Origin: Deltaproteobacteria bacterium
GTDB lineage: Bacteria; Lernaellota; Lernaellaia; JACKCT01
NCBI GenBank assembly: GCA_020845895.1
Contig: JADLEX010000095.1
Span: 1-62,074 of the forward strand
DNA: 62,074 bases
Reading direction: 5' to 3'
Positions 365-10,466 of the stretch are shown here, in pieces (position 1 is the stretch's first letter; each line of letters begins with the position of its first letter). The notes under the pieces were generated by a model. That model did not search any database. It saw nothing but the letters and a program-made list of their open reading frames with translations, and was not told where the DNA came from. Made by a program: the position numbers and the translations under genes.

Positions 365-2260
365 ATGGTGCCGGACGACACCAACGACCTGCGGGCGATC
401 AAATCGGTGATCGACCTGACATTGCAGGGTTTACTTCGCGATGCGCAGGTCGCTCTCAACGAGATGGTGGCGTCGAGCGGCTCTCCCCTCGCTGGTTTGA
501 AGAAAAGCCTGTCGCTGCTCCTCGAAGACCTGGTCACCTCGTTTTCCTCGAAGGAGTCAGCCCTCGCCTCGGTGCAAATCTCGATCATGGAGATGGAGGC
601 GGCGCAGGAGGAACTGAGCAATCGGGAGGCGCGTTTTCGCACGACCCTCATCAGCATCGGCGACGGACTGATCTCCACCGACGCGGAGGGACGCGTCGAC
701 TTCATGAACCCGGCGGCGGAGCAACTCACGGGATGGAACATGCAGGATGCCGTGGGCCGGCCGATCACCGACGTCTTCGACATCTTCAACGCGATCACGG
801 GAGATGCGGTTGAGAACCCCACGGAGCGCTCCCTGCGCGAAGGCGTGGTCGTCGATCTCGCCAACCATACTGTCCTGATCGCGCGGGACGGCACCGAGCG
901 GCAGATCGCCGACAGTTGCGCCCCGATCCGCGACGAAAAGGGTCTGATCATCGGTTCGGTGCTCGTGTTCCGTGATGTCACGGAGGAATACCGCCGCCGC
1001 GAACAACTGCGGGAGAGCGAGGAACGATATCGCGTTCTGTTTCACAACTCCCGCGACGCCATGATGACCCTCGCGCCCCCGTCCTGGAGATTTTCTTCAG
1101 GTAATCCGGCGGCGCTCGCGATGTTCGGCGCGACGGCCGAAATCGAATTCACGTCCCTCGGACCCATGGAGGTGTCGCCGGAATTTCAGCCCGATGGCGG
1201 CGCATCCTCGGAAAGAGCGCAGGAGCGGATCGGCGAAGCGCTTCGGACGGGGTCCGCTTTTTTTCCGTGGACGCACCGGAAACTCGATGGAAACGTTTTC
1301 CACACGACCGTGTTGCTGACGAAAAGCGACCTGAACGGGGAAACGATCGTTCAGGCCACCGTTCGCGACGTCACCCAGCAACAGCGCCTCGAGGCCGAGC
1401 TGCACCAGGCGCGCAAGCTCGAGGCTGTGGGCCAGCTCGCAGCGGGCATCGCTCACGAAATCAACACCCCCGCCCAGTTCGTGAGTGACAGCCTTCATTT
1501 CCTGGGCGATTCCTGCCGATCCGTTCACGGCCTGCTCGAACGATATCGGGAGATTCTGGCGCCGCTGTTTTCGCGGCCGGGGTTCGAACCGTTTCTGAAG
1601 CGGCTCCGGGACGCGGAGGAGGAAGCCGACCTGGAGTACGTCGCGGAGAACACGCCGGCGGCGTTTGCCCGGGCTCTGGACGGGGTCGGTCGCATCTCCT
1701 CGATCGTGAGCGCCATGAAGGAGTTCGCCCATCCGGACCAGCGCGAGAAGAGTCCCGCCGACCTCAACCGGGCCCTGCAGGCCACGCTGACGATCGCGCG
1801 CAACGAATACAAGTACGTGGCGGATGTGGAGACCGACTTCGGGGAGTTGCCGTCGGTCCTGTGCCACGCGGGAGACCTGAACCAGGTTTTCCTGAACCTG
1901 TTCATCAACGCGGCGCACGCCATCGCCGGCGTCGTCGGCGACAGCGGGGACCGGGGGTGCATCCACGTGCGCACGCGATGTGACGACGGCCGCGTCGTCC
2001 GGATCGACATCCGGGACACCGGCTGCGGAATCCCCGACGGCGTCCGCGCGCGGATCTTTGAGCCGTTTTTCACGACCAAGGAGGTCGGCCGGGGCAGCGG
2101 ACAGGGGCTGGCCATCGCGCGGAACATCGTCGAAAGCAAGCACCGCGGATCGCTGACCTTCCGGAGCGAATGCGGTCGGGGAACGACATTCACGGTCCAA
2201 CTGCCCGTGGACGGGGATTCGCCGGTCGTCGCCGCGTGGCTCCAGGGGCCGCCGTCATGA
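365..2260 (+). CDS. PAS-domain sensor histidine kinase
   Basis: A 631-residue soluble sensor kinase. No transmembrane segment is visible, so it probably senses a cytoplasmic signal. An N-terminal helical region is followed by two PAS-type domains (about residues 95-215 and 220-335), a short coiled coil, and a phosphoacceptor domain with H364 in the motif AAGIAHEINTPAQ. The HATPase domain shows the N box (NLFINAAHAI, Asn511/515) and G boxes (DTGCGIP, then GSGQGLAIA). The FFTTK and GxGxGLA pattern is typical of the NtrB/HWE-like kinases that pair with stand-alone receivers. It carries no receiver of its own. The next gene, a receiver-HDOD protein, starts inside its stop codon (ATGA), so the two are translationally coupled and probably phosphotransfer partners. 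Confidence 0.93.
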   Translation: MVPDDTNDLRAIKSVIDLTLQGLLRDAQVALNEMVASSGSPLAGLKKSLSLLLEDLVTSFSSKESALASVQISIMEMEAAQEELSNREARFRTTLISIGDGLISTDAEGRVDFMNPAAEQLTGWNMQDAVGRPITDVFDIFNAITGDAVENPTERSLREGVVVDLANHTVLIARDGTERQIADSCAPIRDEKGLIIGSVLVFRDVTEEYRRREQLRESEERYRVLFHNSRDAMMTLAPPSWRFSSGNPAALAMFGATAEIEFTSLGPMEVSPEFQPDGGASSERAQERIGEALRTGSAFFPWTHRKLDGNVFHTTVLLTKSDLNGETIVQATVRDVTQQQRLEAELHQARKLEAVGQLAAGIAHEINTPAQFVSDSLHFLGDSCRSVHGLLERYREILAPLFSRPGFEPFLKRLRDAEEEADLEYVAENTPAAFARALDGVGRISSIVSAMKEFAHPDQREKSPADLNRALQATLTIARNEYKYVADVETDFGELPSVLCHAGDLNQVFLNLFINAAHAIAGVVGDSGDRGCIHVRTRCDDGRVVRIDIRDTGCGIPDGVRARIFEPFFTTKEVGRGSGQGLAIARNIVESKHRGSLTFRSECGRGTTFTVQLPVDGDSPVVAAWLQGPPS

Positions 2261-3474
2261 ACGCCCGCGTCCTGTTTGTCGACGACGAATGCAACATTCT
2301 GGAGGGCCTGCGACATCGACTGCGCACCCGGCGCCACCAGTGGGACATGATCTTCGTCGACAACGGGCCGGAGGCTCTTCAGATTCTCGCGCAGTCGCCC
2401 TGCACCGTTATCGTGTCCGACATGCGCATGCCGGGAATGGACGGCGCCGCGCTGCTGCGTCGGGTGCAGCGGGAGTTTCCGGCCGTGTCGCGCATCATCC
2501 TCACCGGCTATGCGGACGAGAGCGCCATGCTGCGGGTCCTGGCCGTGGCGCACCAGTGCATCGCCAAACCATGCGACCCCGGCCTGCTCGAACGTGTCAT
2601 TGAACGCGTCTGCGACCTGCATGCGTTGATCAACGACGACGCCCTTCGGCACGCCGTCGGAAAGGTCACGAGCCTGCCGTCCGCGCCCCGAATCTACGGG
2701 CAACTGATGTCGGTTCTCTCGGACGAACGCGCCTCGGCGGACGACGTGTCGCGCCTCCTGCAACAGGACGGTTCCCTGTGCGCGAAGATTCTCCACATCG
2801 TCAATTCCGCTTATTTCCGGCTGGTGCGGCCGATCGTCCGGGTGGAAGAGGCCGTTTCCTATCTCGGATTCAACTCGATTCGACAGTTGGCCCTGGTTGC
2901 CGAGGTCTTCGGAACGGCGAAAGACGTCTCCGAATGGGAAGGCCGATACGTCGCCGAACTGCAAACGCATGCGCTGCTGTCGGCCGGCATCGCCGCGGCG
3001 ATGTTTTCCCCGGCAGAGAAAAAAGCCACGGCGTTCGTCGCCGCGCTGCTTCACGACATCGGCAAACTGGCGCTGGCGACCGAGCTTCCGGATCGCGCCC
3101 GGCGCATCGCCGGGGCGGCGCAGGTCGGCCGCGTTTCCGCGCACGTCGCGGAGAAGGTCCTGTACGGCGTGACGCACGCGGACATCGGGGCCTTCCTGCT
3201 CGGGCTGTGGCAGATCCCGTTTCCCATCATCGAGGCGGTCGCCCACCATCACGCGCCGGCCCGCGTGACGTCGGACGAGTTCGACGTGCCGGTCGCCGTC
3301 CACATCGCCGACGCGCTGGCGCACGAGCACCAGGAATTGTCCGCCGAAGCGGTGGCGCCCGCTCCCGAGATGGACTCCGGTCTGCTGGACCGGCTGGGGG
3401 TTTCGACCCGGCTCCCGGAATGGCGTCGCATGGCCGGGGAGCTGGCCCGAACGCAATGCGAGGCGTCGCCATGA
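2257..3474 (+). CDS. response regulator with HDOD output domain
   Basis: A 405-residue protein starting at the ATG that overlaps the kinase stop. Residues 1-120 form a CheY-like receiver: acidic pair D9/D10, phosphoacceptor D55 in SDMRMPGMDG, T83 and K104. Residues about 135-330 form an HDOD domain (metal-independent HD-related output domain), beginning near VTSLPSAPRIY and containing the typical ILHIVNSAYF segment. A local HDIGK sequence is retained. HDOD domains in regulators are linked to signalling and c-di-GMP networks, but their biochemical activity is not established. It ends in another ATGA overlap with the next regulator. Confidence 0.9.
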   Translation: MNARVLFVDDECNILEGLRHRLRTRRHQWDMIFVDNGPEALQILAQSPCTVIVSDMRMPGMDGAALLRRVQREFPAVSRIILTGYADESAMLRVLAVAHQCIAKPCDPGLLERVIERVCDLHALINDDALRHAVGKVTSLPSAPRIYGQLMSVLSDERASADDVSRLLQQDGSLCAKILHIVNSAYFRLVRPIVRVEEAVSYLGFNSIRQLALVAEVFGTAKDVSEWEGRYVAELQTHALLSAGIAAAMFSPAEKKATAFVAALLHDIGKLALATELPDRARRIAGAAQVGRVSAHVAEKVLYGVTHADIGAFLLGLWQIPFPIIEAVAHHHAPARVTSDEFDVPVAVHIADALAHEHQELSAEAVAPAPEMDSGLLDRLGVSTRLPEWRRMAGELARTQCEASP

Positions 3475-4613
3475 AACAGGAAACAACGATGGACCGACCG
3501 AAGGTGCTGTGCGTTGACGACGAAAAAAGCCTGCTGGAGGGACTGGTCCTCCACCTGCACCGCTCCTATGAGGCGGTCACCGCCACCAGCGGTGAAGAGG
3601 GGCTGGAACTGCTGAAAACCCACGGCCCGTTCGCGGTCGTAATGTCCGACATGCGGATGCCCGGCATGGACGGCGCCGCATTTCTTTCCCGGGTCCGCCA
3701 GGCGGCGCCGAACACCGTTCGCCTGCTGCTGACCGGCTACGCGGACCTCAATTCGGCCGTTGCCGCGGTGAACGAAGGACAGATCTTCCGCTTCCTGACC
3801 AAACCCTGTCCTCCCGATCAGTTGTTGTCGGTGTTCCAGGCCGCTGCCGAACAATACCGCCTGATCACCGCCGAACGCGTCCTGCTGGAAGAGACGCTGC
3901 GCGGGAGCATCCGGATCCTCGTCGATGTCCTTTCGCTCGCCAGCCCTCTCGCTTTCGGTCGCGCGAACCGCGTTCGGCGGCACGCGAACGAACTCGCGGA
4001 GGCGCTGAAGGCGCCGAATCGATGGCAGATCGAGGTGAGCGCCATGCTCTCGCAGCTCGGCAGCATTGCGGTCCCGGAGTACATCATCCGGAAACACGAC
4101 GACGGGGAGGATTTGACCGACGACGAACGGGCCATGATGCGCCGGATCCCCGCGGTGGCGGAAGGGCTGGTGGCGAATATTCCCCGCCTGGAGCCGATCC
4201 GGGACATCCTGTCGCAATATGTGAAACTGAGTACCGCCGGCGCTGCGGACGCCGCCAAGCCCGGTCTCGGCGCGGCAATCCTGAGCGTCGCGATCGATTA
4301 CGACGTGTTGGAATCGCGGGGATTTTCCACGGCCCGCGCCCTGGCGGCCCTGTGTGCCCGCCCCCGGCAATACGACCCGACGGTCCTCGAGACCTTCATG
4401 CGCCTGAAGAGTCGGTCGGCTGATCGGCCAAAAAAAGCGGTTTCCCTGTGGGATCTGCCCGTGGGGGCGGTTTTCGCGGAAGACGTGCGCACAAGACAGG
4501 GATTGCTGGTCGTCTCCCGGGGATTTCAGGTCACCGCCAGCTTTCTGGAGCGCGTGAGGAACTACGACCTGCAGGAACCTCTGTACGTTCACGACGCTCC
4601 GGATGAAGGGTGA
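3471..4613 (+). CDS. response regulator with degenerate HD-GYP-like domain
   Basis: A 380-residue protein whose ATG overlaps the previous stop. The receiver is intact (D16/D17, phosphoacceptor D60 in SDMRMPGMDG, conserved TGYAD and KPC segments). The C-terminal region is laid out like an RpfG-type HD-GYP domain, but where an active enzyme has HDIGK it reads MLSQLGSIAVPEYI, so the HD metal ligands are absent. I see no intact GYP motif either. By family knowledge such a protein should not hydrolyse c-di-GMP and may act as a scaffold or signal-responsive adaptor. A PilZ-like or S1-like small beta segment (about residues 320-375, VGAVFAEDVRTRQGLLVVS) closes the protein, as in many RpfG relatives. 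Confidence 0.85.
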   Translation: MKQETTMDRPKVLCVDDEKSLLEGLVLHLHRSYEAVTATSGEEGLELLKTHGPFAVVMSDMRMPGMDGAAFLSRVRQAAPNTVRLLLTGYADLNSAVAAVNEGQIFRFLTKPCPPDQLLSVFQAAAEQYRLITAERVLLEETLRGSIRILVDVLSLASPLAFGRANRVRRHANELAEALKAPNRWQIEVSAMLSQLGSIAVPEYIIRKHDDGEDLTDDERAMMRRIPAVAEGLVANIPRLEPIRDILSQYVKLSTAGAADAAKPGLGAAILSVAIDYDVLESRGFSTARALAALCARPRQYDPTVLETFMRLKSRSADRPKKAVSLWDLPVGAVFAEDVRTRQGLLVVSRGFQVTASFLERVRNYDLQEPLYVHDAPDEG

Positions 4614-5785
4614 TGCGAATGGCCGGCAACGTCCGACACACCGACCTGCCCGAGGTGCTGTGCGTGGACGACGAGCCGCAGGTGCTGGCCGGGCTCGCCG
4701 TGACGCTCGGAAAAGACTACTCGGTGACCACCGCGAACAGCGCCAGCGATGCGCTTGCGCTGCTGCGGGCCGGGAGGCTTTATGCGGCGCTGGTGACCGA
4801 TTTTCGGATGCCGGGGACCGACGGGATTGCCCTGCTGTGACACGCATGCGAGATCGCGCCCGACACGATTCGGATTCTGCTTTCCGGCGTCGCGGACGTC
4901 GGCACGGCCGTTTCCGCGGTCAACGAAGGGCACATCTTTCGGATTCTCCACAAGCCGTGCCCGACCGAGGCTCTTCTCGGAGCCCTGGAGGACGCGGTCG
5001 AACATGATCGTCTCGTCACCGCCGACCGGGCACTCACCGAACGACGGATCGAGCGAATCACCGGGCAACTGCTCCACGCCGAACGTCTGGCGACGTTGGG
5101 AACTCTCGCCGCGGGCATCGGCCATGAACTGAACAACATCACCACCGCCTATCTGGGGCTGCTGGACGAAGTCCGCGAGCAGGCGGCGACGGGCCGGCCG
5201 CCATCGCCCGACACCCTCGCGAACTTGGAGCAGATCGGCCGGCACTACCGGATGCACGGCACCCATATGCTGGGAATCGGGCGGCCGGGGCTCGATCAAC
5301 CGATGCGACTGGACCCGTGCGACGTCACGCGGGACACCTTGTCGATGCTCGGAACCGTGGGCAAGACAAAACGGCTCGATGTGCGAACCGACTTTTCCGT
5401 GGCGTCGTCGTTTGTCTTCGCCGATCGGCGGCGCATCGAACAGGTTCTGGTCAACTTCGTGTCGAACGCCTCGGACGCCACGGCCGGCAACGCCGACGGT
5501 CAACGGCGCCTGACGGTGACCGTCGGTCGCGGCGCCGACGGATTTGTCTTCTGCGACATCGAAGACAACGGGTGCGGGATTCCGGAACAGGATCTCGACA
5601 CGATCTTCGATCCGTATTTCACCACGAAAGTCCCCGGACAGGGGACCGGCCTGGGCCTGTCCGTCGTCAAGCAAATTGTGGAGTCCTGCCGGGGAAAAGT
5701 GACCGTCCGCAGCCGTGTTGCCGTCGGAACGGTTTTCACATTCGCCCTCCCCGCGTCGCCCGACGAGACCGGTCCGGTGGACTAG
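4610..5785 (+). pseudogene. receiver-histidine kinase interrupted by an in-frame TGA
   Basis: One continuous frame from an ATG overlapping the previous stop to 5785, interrupted by a single TGA at 4838-4840. Before the stop lies the first two-thirds of a receiver (VLCVDDEPQ, TDFRMPGTDG). Immediately after it, in the same frame, the receiver resumes (TIRILLSGVADVGTA, ILHKPCP) and leads to a histidine kinase core with H box AAGIGHELNN, N box VNFVSNASDA and G boxes DNGCGIP and GTGLGLSV. Alignment with the two preceding receivers puts Arg or Ser at the stop, so a CGA to TGA change is the simplest explanation. A TTG at 5096 could start the kinase core alone. It may be a recent pseudogene, a readthrough product, two separate proteins, or a sequencing error. 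Confidence 0.75.
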
Positions 5786-6010
5786 CGTTTCGGCCGCCCC
5801 GCCGGTCGGAACGCCGCCGTAATCCGGCTCGTTAACGCCTCGGACCCGTTCGCGTAAAATCTATCGCCGGTTCGGCGAATCGGGCGTACAATGAGGGCGA
5901 TCGGATAACGCGTCGGATCATGCGTCGCTGGTGTGCGGGCCGCATTCCACGGGCGTTTTCGCGCCGGTGCGAGTGTGGCCCATTTTGCTGAAGACGCGGG
6001 GAGTGCTGTC

Positions 6011-7549
6011 ATGTCGAAAGTGGTTTTTCTGGAGCCCCGGGCCGCGAACCCGCACATCTTTTCGGGATTTGGGATCCCCCGGCTGGGCTCCGTCCTGCTG
6101 GCGACCATCCTGCGCGGGCTTGGGCACGACGCGGGGGTCTTCGTCGAGGATATCCGCGAGGTCGATTTCGAGCGCGTCCTTTCGGCCGATCTCGCGGCGA
6201 TTTCCGTTCTCACCCCCACCGCGCCGCGCGGTTACGAAATGGCGCGCCAGATCCATGCGCGCGGCGTCCCCGTCATCATGGGCGGTCCGCACGTCACGTT
6301 TCTGGCCGACGAGGCGCTGGAGCACTGCGACTTTGTGATCCGCGGCGAGGCGGAACGCTCGATGCCGGCGTTCATGAATGCCTGGTCGACCGGCGCGGAT
6401 CTCGCCTCGGTGCCGGGTCTGTCCTATCGCCGGGGCCGCGAGGTCGTACACAATCCCGTCGATCCCGCCCCGGTCGACATCCGGGCGAACCCCATCCCCG
6501 ACATGAGCCTTGTCGATGGCTACGACAGCCGCCGGGGCGTCACGCGATGGCGCATCGTACCGATCCAGACCTCGCGCGGCTGCCCCTTCGCCTGTTCGTT
6601 CTGCTCGGTGACACAGATGTTCGGTCGCGGCATGCGCTATCGGGAAACGTCCGATGTGCTCGATGAGCTCGATCGGTGCGATCCCCGGCGCGATTTCGTG
6701 TTTTTCTACGACGACAACTTCTGCGTGAACCTTCCGCGCACGCGCCGAATTCTCGAGGGAATGATCGATCGGCGTCCGGGATGGCGGTGGTCGGCGCAGG
6801 TGCGTATCGATGTCGCGCGCGACGAGGAATTTCTTCGGCTGATGTGCGACTCCGGCTGCCGTCACATCTACATCGGGTTCGAGTCCATTTCCGACGAAAC
6901 GCTCGCGCTCATGAAAAAGGCGCAGACGAGCCTTCAGGCCACGAAGGCCATCGAGGCGATCCACCGGCACGGAATCGGCATCCACGGCATGTTCGTCTTC
7001 GGGTTCGACACCGACACGAAAAAGGATCTCAAACGCACCTGGCGTTATGCCATGAAACAAAAGCTTCGCACCGCGCAGTTCATGATTCTCACGCCGATGC
7101 CCGGCACGGACACCTACCGTGTTCTCGAAGGCGAGAACCGGATCGAGGTGCGCGACTGGAGTTTCTACGACGGCCAGCATGTGGTGTTCCGCCCCAAGCA
7201 TCTCAGCCCGGCGGAGTTGCAGTGGTGCCAGATCCGCGCGCACCGCTGTTACTATTCGTGGCGCGAGCGCATCAAATCGATTTTCCGGCTGGATCTTTAT
7301 CGCGCGACGATCCAGGTCTACGCCAAGGGCATCGGACAACGCTGGATCCGCCAGAATCGCTATTATCTGAAGGCGATCAAACTCGCGCGACGCGCCGAGC
7401 AGGCCATCGCGGGAAAGGGCTCGCACATCGCCATCCGGTTTCATCCGCTCGCCACGTACCGCGATGTTCACGAGCAGGTGGAACATGCGGTGGAACGCAT
7501 GCGCGCACGGGGCGAGAAGAGCTTTGCCGATTCCCCAACTTCCATTTGA
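6011..7549 (+). CDS. radical SAM protein with B12-binding-like N-terminal domain
   Basis: A 512-residue protein. I chose the ATG at 6011 because GGGGAG lies seven bases upstream; the frame is open further 5'. Residues about 1-140 resemble the cobalamin-binding-like Rossmann domain found in front of many radical SAM enzymes (VIMGGPHVTFLADEAL, GEAERSMPAF), but I do not see the DxHxxG motif needed for base-off B12. The radical SAM core has the cluster motif C191-x3-C195-x2-C198 (SRGCPFACSFCS), then FFYDDNF and the ESISDETLALMKK segment. This architecture occurs in methyltransferases, BchE-like cyclases and HpnP-type enzymes. The substrate cannot be told here. It is monocistronic, with 225 bases to the kinase array and 133 to the next gene. 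Confidence 0.85.
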   Translation: MSKVVFLEPRAANPHIFSGFGIPRLGSVLLATILRGLGHDAGVFVEDIREVDFERVLSADLAAISVLTPTAPRGYEMARQIHARGVPVIMGGPHVTFLADEALEHCDFVIRGEAERSMPAFMNAWSTGADLASVPGLSYRRGREVVHNPVDPAPVDIRANPIPDMSLVDGYDSRRGVTRWRIVPIQTSRGCPFACSFCSVTQMFGRGMRYRETSDVLDELDRCDPRRDFVFFYDDNFCVNLPRTRRILEGMIDRRPGWRWSAQVRIDVARDEEFLRLMCDSGCRHIYIGFESISDETLALMKKAQTSLQATKAIEAIHRHGIGIHGMFVFGFDTDTKKDLKRTWRYAMKQKLRTAQFMILTPMPGTDTYRVLEGENRIEVRDWSFYDGQHVVFRPKHLSPAELQWCQIRAHRCYYSWRERIKSIFRLDLYRATIQVYAKGIGQRWIRQNRYYLKAIKLARRAEQAIAGKGSHIAIRFHPLATYRDVHEQVEHAVERMRARGEKSFADSPTSI

Positions 7550-7682
7550 ACAACCTTTCAAAACCGTCTTGCGGCACACCCCGTCGCGGCGGTACACTTT
7601 CGCCCCTGTAGCGACCCGCGCGCGGTGGGCATCGGCTAAGGTGCGTGCGCGTGCGGCGCGCGCATCGGCTTGGGGGACGGCG

Positions 7683-10466
7683 GTGAAAGCGTATTTGTCG
7701 TGGGCATGGATGGCGGTGCTGGCTCTCGGACTCGTGATGGCCGGGGGTTGCACCCGTGGCGAATCGGACGACGAGCGGCCCGAGGGCTACGACTTCGAGA
7801 ACCCCGGCGGCGACGGCCCGGAGGTGCTTTTCGAACCCGGCGCGAAACCAATTTCACTGATCCCGCAGCCCAACAATATCCTCGCCAAGGATGACCCGAC
7901 GACGCGCACGGGGCTTCGCGTCAACATCCCGCAGGAAGCCGAGACGCAGCTCGGGCGCGACCTGCGCAGCCGGCTGCGTCAGCTCGACGGCTTCGCGAAT
8001 TTCTCGAACATCGCCGTGTCGTTTTCGATGCCGATCAACCTGTTCACGATCCGCGACGAGACCATCTACCTCGTCAACGTGCAGCGCGACTCCAAATATT
8101 ACGGCGACATCGTCGAGGTGGATCTCGGCAAGGGCTACTACCCCAAGAACATGGTGGATCCCGAGGCGTTTTTCCCGAACGACGAAAACGCGGAAAACCC
8201 GACGGTCATCTACGCCGCGGACAACCGCGTCGACTGGTACGAGGACGCGACGAACACCCTGCTGATCCGCCCGCTCGTGCCGCTCAAGCAAAGCAGCAAA
8301 TACGCCGTGGTGCTCACGACCGGACTGCGCGGCGAGAACGGCTTCCCGGTGCGTCCGCCGGATTACTTCGAAAAGGTCACGTTCCCCGAGCAGTTCGATT
8401 CGCTCACCGACGCCGCCGAGATTCTGGCGACGAAGAAGGGTGTGAACCCCAAGGACATCGCGTTTTCGTGGGAGTTCACGACTGCGACGATCACCGATCA
8501 TCTGCAGGAGCTTCGGCGCGGCCTGCATGGCGAGGGACCCTTCGATTACCTCGCCGACGAACTCGTCCCCAGCATCACGCAGCTTCATCCGTTCTCGATG
8601 GGCACCGAGACCGACGGCAACGACTACGTGATGGACGCACGGGCCTTCGGCAGCTTCATGGACCTGATCGGCGGGTTCATCGAGGGCGGGCAGAACGTGC
8701 CGCTCGACGTCATGTTCGGAACGGACAGCGTGGACTACATCGTCTCGGGCTCGTTCACGACGGCGAGTTTTCTCGAGACGCACGACCGCGTCTTTCACGT
8801 GGACTACGACACGGGCGAGGCCGAGTGGGCGCCCGAAGAAGTGCCGTTCTACATCGCGGTGCCGCGCCCGTGCGCTAAGAACAACTACGCGCAGCCGCCA
8901 TACCCCATCACCTTTCACCAGCACGCCAACATCCGCAATCGGCTCGACATGCTCGCGCTCGCGAATCACATGGCCGAGCAGGGTATCGCGACGATCGGCA
9001 TCGACGCCGCGGAGCACGGCCCCGAGACGTACGTGAGCGCGATCTATTACGCGCTCGACAGCTTCAACGATCTCAATATCGGCCCGATCGGCGACGTGCC
9101 GGCGAGCCTGCTCGTCAAGATCATCATGGGGATCTTTTACCCGAACATCGACATCAGCGGCCTCGATTCGAAGGAACTGGTGCAGGTGCTGAAGGACAAG
9201 ACCTTCCTCGGCGCGATGCTGCACGGACGCACGCCGGACTTCGACGGCGACGGGCTCATCATCTCGGGCCAGAGCTTCTATTCGGCGGATATCTTCCGCA
9301 CCGTGGCGATCTCCCACCAGACCGTGTTCGATCTGTTTCAGGCCGTGCGCGTGCTGCGCGCCATGGGCACCGATTGGAACGCCAACGGCAAGCTCGATCT
9401 GGAGGAAGGCGACTTCAATCAGGACGGCGTGCTCGACGTGGCCGGACCCGACCTCGAGATTTCGTTCGTCGGCATGAGCCTCGGCTCGTTGATCGGAATC
9501 CCATTCGTGTCGCTGGAACCGGAAATCAGGTCGGCCGTGTTCAACGTGCCCGGCGGCGGCCTCACCGACATTCTGCAGCGCACGACGATTCCCAACGTCA
9601 ATTACGGCGTGCGTGCCGACCTGCTGGGGCCGATGATCATCGGCACGCCGGACGCGGCCAAGGGCGTGACGCATCTGAACTATCATGCCGAGGCGCTGGA
9701 TCTCGAATTCGGCAGCGAGGTGTTCAACACGTTCATCGGCGACGTGCCGCTCGCGGCGGGCAGGCGCATCAGCATGGAGAACACCAAAACCGGCGTCATC
9801 AAACACAAGACCGTGGATGCGACGGGGAATTTCGCCATCGCGGTCGGCGCGGACAAGGGCGACTGGCTGCGGTTGACCGTCACCGACCCGATCACGGAAA
9901 GGCCCGTCGGCAAGTTCGAGTTCGCCACCGAATACCGGGGCCTGGGCGTGGACCGCAACACCCCCGAAGCGCGCTCGTTCATCGACAACGCGCAGTGGGC
10001 CGTGGGCCTGTCCGATCCCATCAGCTTCGCGCCGCATCTGGCGCAGGACCCCGTGACGGAGGCTGGGCCGAAGAACTTCATCATGCAGGTCTGTTCGCCC
10101 GACTCCGCGATTCCGCTGCAGGCGGGCACGGCGATCATCCGCGCGGCGGGCATCATCGACGACTGGCACATGGACAATCTGCTCGACCGCGGCGCGCTGA
10201 ACGAAATCCGCGTGTCGTTCGCCAACGGCAACCTGCCGCTGCAGAGCGTGGCGCATCAGGCATGGCGCGTGCATCCTGGCTACAACCACGAGTACATGCT
10301 CGCGCCGCGTTTCGATCCGTACTCGATCATGTATTCCATCGCCGCACGCCGGCAGGCGGCGCTGTTCCTCAAGAGCCACGGCGAGATCATCGAGGACAAC
10401 CTCTACATGCTCGTCGATCCCGAATGGCTGGCCGACCCGCTCGATCCCGATGTGCTGGAGGAGTAG
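7683..10466 (+). CDS. VolA-like alpha/beta-hydrolase (lipase family) surface lipoprotein
   Basis: A 927-residue lipoprotein starting at GTG 7683, five bases after GGGGGA; the frame is open further upstream but without a signal peptide. The hydrophobic leader ends in a lipobox at C23 (MAGGC). The N-terminal part resembles the bacterial virulence-factor lipase N-terminal domain (LIPQPNNIL, then LDGFANFSNIAVSFSMPIN). The hydrolase part has FHQHANIRNR and the nucleophile elbow G597-M-S599-L-G601, with GIDAAEHG upstream. Two EF-hand or dockerin-like calcium loops (from D564 and D577, with the DxNxDGxxD pattern) are inserted just before the elbow. VolA-type proteins release fatty acids from phospholipids at the cell surface; that role here is inference. 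It lies four bases upstream of the next lipoprotein gene. Confidence 0.75.
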   Translation: MKAYLSWAWMAVLALGLVMAGGCTRGESDDERPEGYDFENPGGDGPEVLFEPGAKPISLIPQPNNILAKDDPTTRTGLRVNIPQEAETQLGRDLRSRLRQLDGFANFSNIAVSFSMPINLFTIRDETIYLVNVQRDSKYYGDIVEVDLGKGYYPKNMVDPEAFFPNDENAENPTVIYAADNRVDWYEDATNTLLIRPLVPLKQSSKYAVVLTTGLRGENGFPVRPPDYFEKVTFPEQFDSLTDAAEILATKKGVNPKDIAFSWEFTTATITDHLQELRRGLHGEGPFDYLADELVPSITQLHPFSMGTETDGNDYVMDARAFGSFMDLIGGFIEGGQNVPLDVMFGTDSVDYIVSGSFTTASFLETHDRVFHVDYDTGEAEWAPEEVPFYIAVPRPCAKNNYAQPPYPITFHQHANIRNRLDMLALANHMAEQGIATIGIDAAEHGPETYVSAIYYALDSFNDLNIGPIGDVPASLLVKIIMGIFYPNIDISGLDSKELVQVLKDKTFLGAMLHGRTPDFDGDGLIISGQSFYSADIFRTVAISHQTVFDLFQAVRVLRAMGTDWNANGKLDLEEGDFNQDGVLDVAGPDLEISFVGMSLGSLIGIPFVSLEPEIRSAVFNVPGGGLTDILQRTTIPNVNYGVRADLLGPMIIGTPDAAKGVTHLNYHAEALDLEFGSEVFNTFIGDVPLAAGRRISMENTKTGVIKHKTVDATGNFAIAVGADKGDWLRLTVTDPITERPVGKFEFATEYRGLGVDRNTPEARSFIDNAQWAVGLSDPISFAPHLAQDPVTEAGPKNFIMQVCSPDSAIPLQAGTAIIRAAGIIDDWHMDNLLDRGALNEIRVSFANGNLPLQSVAHQAWRVHPGYNHEYMLAPRFDPYSIMYSIAARRQAALFLKSHGEIIEDNLYMLVDPEWLADPLDPDVLEE

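Follow-up and report, generated by a model that had tools for sequence, protein, structure and literature searches.

The interrupted gene and its two-component cluster

The window, the whole stretch of 62,074 bases that was analysed, carries four tightly overlapping two-component genes on its forward strand, the last of which is interrupted by an in-frame stop codon. The first gene, at positions 365–2260, encodes a PAS-domain histidine kinase (Pfam PAS and HATPase_c). It is followed at 2257–3474 by a receiver-HDOD response regulator (Pfam Response_reg and HDOD), which overlaps its neighbours, and at 3471–4613 by a receiver-HD_5 response regulator with a degenerate HD-GYP-type domain, assigned by Pfam, which overlaps the interrupted gene. 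The fourth, at 4613–5785, is the gene for a receiver-histidine kinase (RR-HK), recognised by its reading frame and Pfam domains; its start overlaps the stop of the preceding gene in the sequence TGATG. A promoter-like consensus match lies downstream of RR-HK and before the next gene, at 5832–5860 (1 found, 0.2 expected). Among the literature matches listed, no title concerns this four-gene cluster.

The HD dipeptide is missing at the aligned place in all 18 of the cluster receiver-HD_5 regulators compared, those of the window and of 17 loci that score over 140 bits with near-full coverage. The window's copy is also without a recognisable GYP motif, which is partly kept in loci L024, L032 and L036. 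Judged from these alignments, the protein appears to be a conserved degenerate HD-GYP-type regulator encoded next to a receiver-HDOD protein.

The RR-HK frame runs from ATG 4613 to its final stop at 5783–5785, with the TGA at 4838–4840 as its sole interruption. Read through with a placeholder at this codon, it gives 390 residues, with Response_reg at residues 15–125 and HATPase_c at 271–381, which confirms the claim of the initial annotation that the stop is in frame and that the sequence on both sides of it is normal. The annotation had also treated the TGA as a divider between receiver and kinase. This proves incorrect, as the stop cuts the receiver itself: 61 of the 111 positions of the Response_reg profile precede it, while the remainder of the receiver and the kinase follow. 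The frame, the receiver alignment and an AlphaFold2 model place the TGA at residue 76, within predicted receiver helix 3 (residues 71–81). The model of the read-through protein is modest (mean pLDDT 74.3, pTM 0.48, seven sequences), with a pLDDT of about 80 in this helix. As terminated, the product is 75 residues long and ends in helix 3; the remainder of the receiver lies beyond the stop, as does the entire kinase. The 85 codons that follow the TGA (4841–5095), characterised by coding score and conservation, include no ATG, GTG or TTG and correspond to the second half of the receiver, the linker and the start of the DHp helix. The remaining kinase (5096–5785), with its His at residue 171 and the HATPase domain, is defined by frame, alignment and model.

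The residue at the stop was compared across 72 receivers, the matches with E ≤ 1e-4 that span residues 25 to 105 (3 of 75 matches were dropped). The residue-76 column is freely variable, with Ala in 15, Arg in 14, Ser in 10, Glu in 10 and others in the rest. An origin of the TGA from CGA had been proposed because the stop falls at an Arg/Ser position. By eye, the two receivers encoded upstream do bear out the Arg/Ser assignment, but the CGA origin does not follow from it, since a column this variable does not allow the original codon to be inferred.

Conservation around the stop and in relatives

The closest relative found is locus L032, from the Myxococcales bacterium SURF_8 metagenome-assembled genome (MAG; QZKR01000119.1), in which all four genes are present and RR-HK, at 379 amino acids, is intact. 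Residues 77–161 of the window's protein, those encoded directly after the stop, are identical to L032 at 43 of 85 positions, and the protein elsewhere at 112 of 288. In leave-one-out scoring against the receiver profile, ranked from the lowest score, the portion after the stop stands at 51 of 73 and the portion before it at 25 of 73. The read-through frame keeps the receiver and kinase catalytic residues expected of a receiver-histidine kinase. Its receiver Asp residues and Lys align with those of L032 and other receivers, and H171, N281, N285, D318, G320, G322, F332, P334 and F336 are invariant in a seven-sequence alignment that includes RR-HK. The single TGA is the only lesion seen in the gene. 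Codon bias is somewhat weak in the 85 codons after the stop: G+C at third positions is 0.741, compared with 0.784–0.853 in the other stretches measured, and the coding score of 0.20 ties with one antisense frame, while other stretches score 0.27–0.40. This weakness could reflect slight decay, or chance in a stretch of 85 codons.

L032 is the closest of the 32 loci found in a scan of GTDB contigs, a scan that may have omitted records from genomes very close to that of the window, and none of the 41 genomes listed is a relative from the same genus. L032 encodes one intact receiver-kinase rather than two separate genes. Identity between the two loci is 41.6% for RR-HK, 40.1% for the receiver-HDOD protein, 44.5% for the receiver-HD_5 protein and 56.3%, over 284 aligned positions, for the PAS-kinase. 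By these values RR-HK, where present, is kept about as well as both regulators. Homologues of the PAS-kinase, the HDOD protein and the HD_5 protein, assigned by best-scoring query, occur together in 16 of 63 loci, the window's own aside. Only L032 among these 16 has a receiver-kinase within the run, several loci being too short to judge; in L040 and L043 a receiver-kinase lies a few kilobases away on the opposite strand. Within the phylum, none of six other genomes has a full-length RR-HK match at E ≤ 1e-30, and one of them (G002) matches the receiver only. This patchy distribution marks RR-HK as an accessory part and suggests that it is dispensable.

The stop is unusual within its own genome. 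The window and a further 400 kb sampled from its genome amount to 462,074 bases with 308 called coding segments; among these, 26 pairs of same-frame neighbours are separated by one stop, and only TGA 4838 is followed directly by a clearly coding stretch devoid of starts (85 codons, score +16.7). L127 comes second and is weaker (93 codons, +4.6); the other 24 pairs, from −10.8 to +0.9, score as expected for ordinary neighbouring genes. The codon-usage scan depends on its settings, as a laxer model gives 28 candidates and a stricter six-frame version none, the target included. The read-through protein has 79 matches in its own genome, three of them flagged with an internal stop; besides that of RR-HK itself, the two other flags are ordinary gene ends.

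The L127 candidate (5037–8483 on the minus strand of G000:C23) is a DNA-methylase-like gene, named by eye, with a single in-frame TGA at 5781–5783. Three homologues, which come from a single other genome, have Leu at this site, and on present data the stop would be classed as an ordinary nonsense lesion. The assembly is thus not free of such lesions. L173 (G044:C18:10458-13061), a methylase homologue from a different genome, also has an in-frame TGA, at a different place near the C-terminus.

Rival readings: selenocysteine, readthrough, restart and assembly error

The genome that holds the window encodes the machinery for selenocysteine, namely tRNA-Sec (L067; 75.2 bits, with ARAGORN in agreement), SelA, SelB and a SelD whose own gene contains an in-frame TGA. 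TGA 4838 could on this basis specify selenocysteine in a receiver that uses U-x-x-C (residues 76–79) as a redox switch. The site would read U-H-A-C, with the Cys three residues past the TGA, and a histidine kinase appears once among the predicted selenoproteins of a deltaproteobacterial MAG, according to an excerpt of PMC8318568. The alignment argues otherwise: none of the 72 receivers has Cys at column 76 and none at column 79. The receiver fold is not known to contain a redox active site. In addition, the best hairpin after the TGA reaches −6.6 kcal/mol against the limit of −7.5 kcal/mol in the bacterial SECIS constraints excerpted from PMC13188914, which place the apical loop 16–37 nt after the TGA, and a stricter loop rule leaves no hairpin. 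The hairpin result carries modest weight. SelD served as a control, in which 20 of 22 TGAs pass and 19 of 22 pass the strict rule; the 22 are the unambiguous sites of 30 loci, from which three loci with two candidate sites and five with none were dropped (four of these five have no internal TGA, and L096 has one that the pattern missed). Among random codons of the window, 427 of 800 pass and 224 of 800 pass strictly, a low specificity in this G+C-rich genome, so that passing means little and failing counts modestly against selenocysteine. The same excerpt of PMC13188914 acknowledges that some true SECIS elements break the published model. The fold at TGA 4838 is no more stable than its shuffles (z from 0.28 to 1.44); a stretch of Escherichia coli fdhF is not clearly better (z −0.34), and the shuffle comparison therefore has little power. 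An Rfam search of 4700–5100 returned one chance match only (Histone3, scoring 13 bits where the cut-off is 34), and no title among the literature matches listed concerns a selenocysteine receiver domain. The Cys column is a stronger argument than the hairpin, and selenocysteine at this site, its chance close to negligible, was rejected despite the machinery, for want of Cys homologues and of a hairpin fitting the SECIS model.

Two further observations concern this machinery. SelD (L084, G000:C17:65379-66293) is a predicted selenoprotein whose in-frame TGA stands in the context GAG-U-ACK, with a hairpin of −17.1 kcal/mol that fits the SECIS model. A 93-base tRNA with the Cys anticodon GCA and discriminator U (L068:1500-1592, minus strand; G000:C124:15461-15552) scores as tRNA-Sec at 48 bits, with a cut-off of 47. 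It fits the description of a selC* tRNA-Cys in the excerpted text of PMC7609411, as far as sequence features go. The genome with this tRNA also has an ordinary tRNA-Cys (L148) in addition to tRNA-Sec (L067).

Readthrough of the stop by ordinary tRNAs and a restart beyond it could each provide some kinase. UGA followed by C is a leaky stop context, and the base after TGA 4838 is C; the sequence is moreover conserved on both sides. Near-cognate tRNAs could on these grounds read the codon at a useful level and yield a truncated receiver together with some full-length receiver-kinase. Against this, L032 has no stop at the equivalent site, and all three upstream genes of the cluster terminate in TGA, which marks TGA as a working stop here. 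No TGA-reading anticodon other than that of tRNA-Sec, the sole UCA anticodon seen, occurs among the 40 RF00005 matches, tRNA-Sec and the L068 tRNA. No opal-suppressor tRNA was found among these matches, all 40 typed by ARAGORN; the set is incomplete, tRNA-Ile and tRNA-Tyr being among the types missing, so that a suppressor could have been missed and its absence is no proof. Excerpts of Belinky et al. (PMC7918605) point both ways: in-frame stops and their readthrough are inferred to be frequent in bacteria, yet functional recoding is assumed to account for only a small minority of these events. Basal readthrough is possible, but nothing points to the readthrough offered as an option by the initial annotation, and at a useful level it has only a slim chance. 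Decoding of the TGA by either route, readthrough or selenocysteine, is improbable taken as a whole; it would give a small amount of full-length receiver-kinase alongside the short receiver fragment, and helix 3 of the receiver might then carry a Se/S redox switch. Alternatively, re-initiation at TTG 5096, or at a start of a rarer type, might yield a separate kinase that acts as a free partner. The earliest conventional start beyond the TGA is TTG 5096, which opens a 229-codon frame containing the phospho-His and the ATPase domain. This start has no Shine-Dalgarno match, a 4-base match being found only at one CTG (4985), and it lies 25 residues into the 56-residue predicted DHp helix 1 (137–192), 9 residues before His171, in a low-confidence part of the model (pLDDT about 44–64). 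A separate second gene needs a start signal of its own at the domain boundary, and none is seen there. The position within a predicted helix and the lack of a Shine-Dalgarno sequence make a free kinase unlikely, and likewise a long-established split into two genes. The 85 codons that such a start would skip are coding and conserved, and because residues 77–161 cannot be reached from a conventional start, their conservation speaks against a two-gene layout of long standing. L032, with one gene instead of a receiver and a separate kinase, agrees. The stand-alone kinase suggested earlier is thus very improbable.

The main rival to a genuine lesion is an error of assembly or sequencing, or a minority allele in the draft consensus, in which case the gene would be whole in the organism. 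The genome is a draft of 171 contigs, 99.51% complete and 2.42% contaminated. The lesion is single in an otherwise conserved gene, and the missing second lesion fits an assembly error equally well. Noisy long reads typically err by insertions and deletions; TGA 4838 is a substitution, not an indel, and there is no positive sign of an assembly error. Cases of TGA in a single sequence are treated as candidates only, given possible sequencing error, in an excerpt of the Sargasso Sea selenoproteome paper (PMC1088965). This explanation is rather unlikely, while readthrough, a free kinase and selenocysteine are each unlikely to a greater degree. A recent nonsense lesion in the dispensable last gene of the four-gene two-component operon is the probable explanation. 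Recent inactivation, one of the options raised by the initial annotation, is the best supported of them: the L032 gene is intact, there is one lesion, and both flanks are conserved and coding, with codon bias somewhat weaker after the stop.

Consequences and comparison with known systems

In the model favoured here, one recent nonsense substitution would knock out the last gene of the operon. Translation would stop after 75 residues and leave half a receiver, with strands 4–5, the switch Ser and the conserved Lys lost. Such a half receiver should neither fold nor signal, and the kinase would not be produced in useful amounts, although low-level readthrough or restart could still give some. The PAS-kinase, the receiver-HDOD protein and the receiver-HD_5 protein would remain intact, and because their genes lie upstream of the lesion they need not be affected. 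We infer a genuine base that has become fixed in the population, a lesion of recent date, a single transcript for all four genes and the absence of any functional kinase. L032 is the only intact syntenic relative, and a distant one at 41.6% identity, which counts against the model in so far as it takes the lesion to be young and fixed.

The loss of RR-HK is most likely a common kind of gene decay, with no sign of special decoding, and alone its stop changes little. PAS-kinase/HDOD/HD_5 signalling clusters recur, and the case documents the likely recent decay of the accessory kinase in one of them. For a genome that decodes selenocysteine, it also illustrates how sequence alone allows a single in-frame stop to be weighed between nonsense, selenocysteine, readthrough and a split gene.

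A comparison with systems that share some of these features places RR-HK among them. Like the gene for SelD (L084), it has an in-frame TGA in a genome with selenocysteine machinery; unlike bacterial selenoprotein genes, it has neither Cys homologues nor a hairpin fitting the SECIS model. It resembles the readthrough candidates in the excerpted text of Belinky et al. (PMC7918605) in its isolated in-frame stop and conserved flanks, and differs from them in having no group of near relatives in which constraint since the stop arose could be seen. The L032 cluster has the same adjacent genes for PAS-kinase, receiver-kinase, receiver-HDOD and receiver-HD_5 proteins, but its receiver-kinase is intact (379 amino acids) and second in order, whereas that of the window is last. 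The closest likeness in kind is to a bacterial pseudogene interrupted by a nonsense codon, with one in-frame stop, an otherwise normal frame and an intact relative. RR-HK has a premature stop relative to an intact homologue, and parts essential to its function are lost from the product, as in a nonsense pseudogene. It departs from the usual nonsense pseudogene in combining one lesion with full conservation, and this combination suggests that the lesion, if real, is very young.
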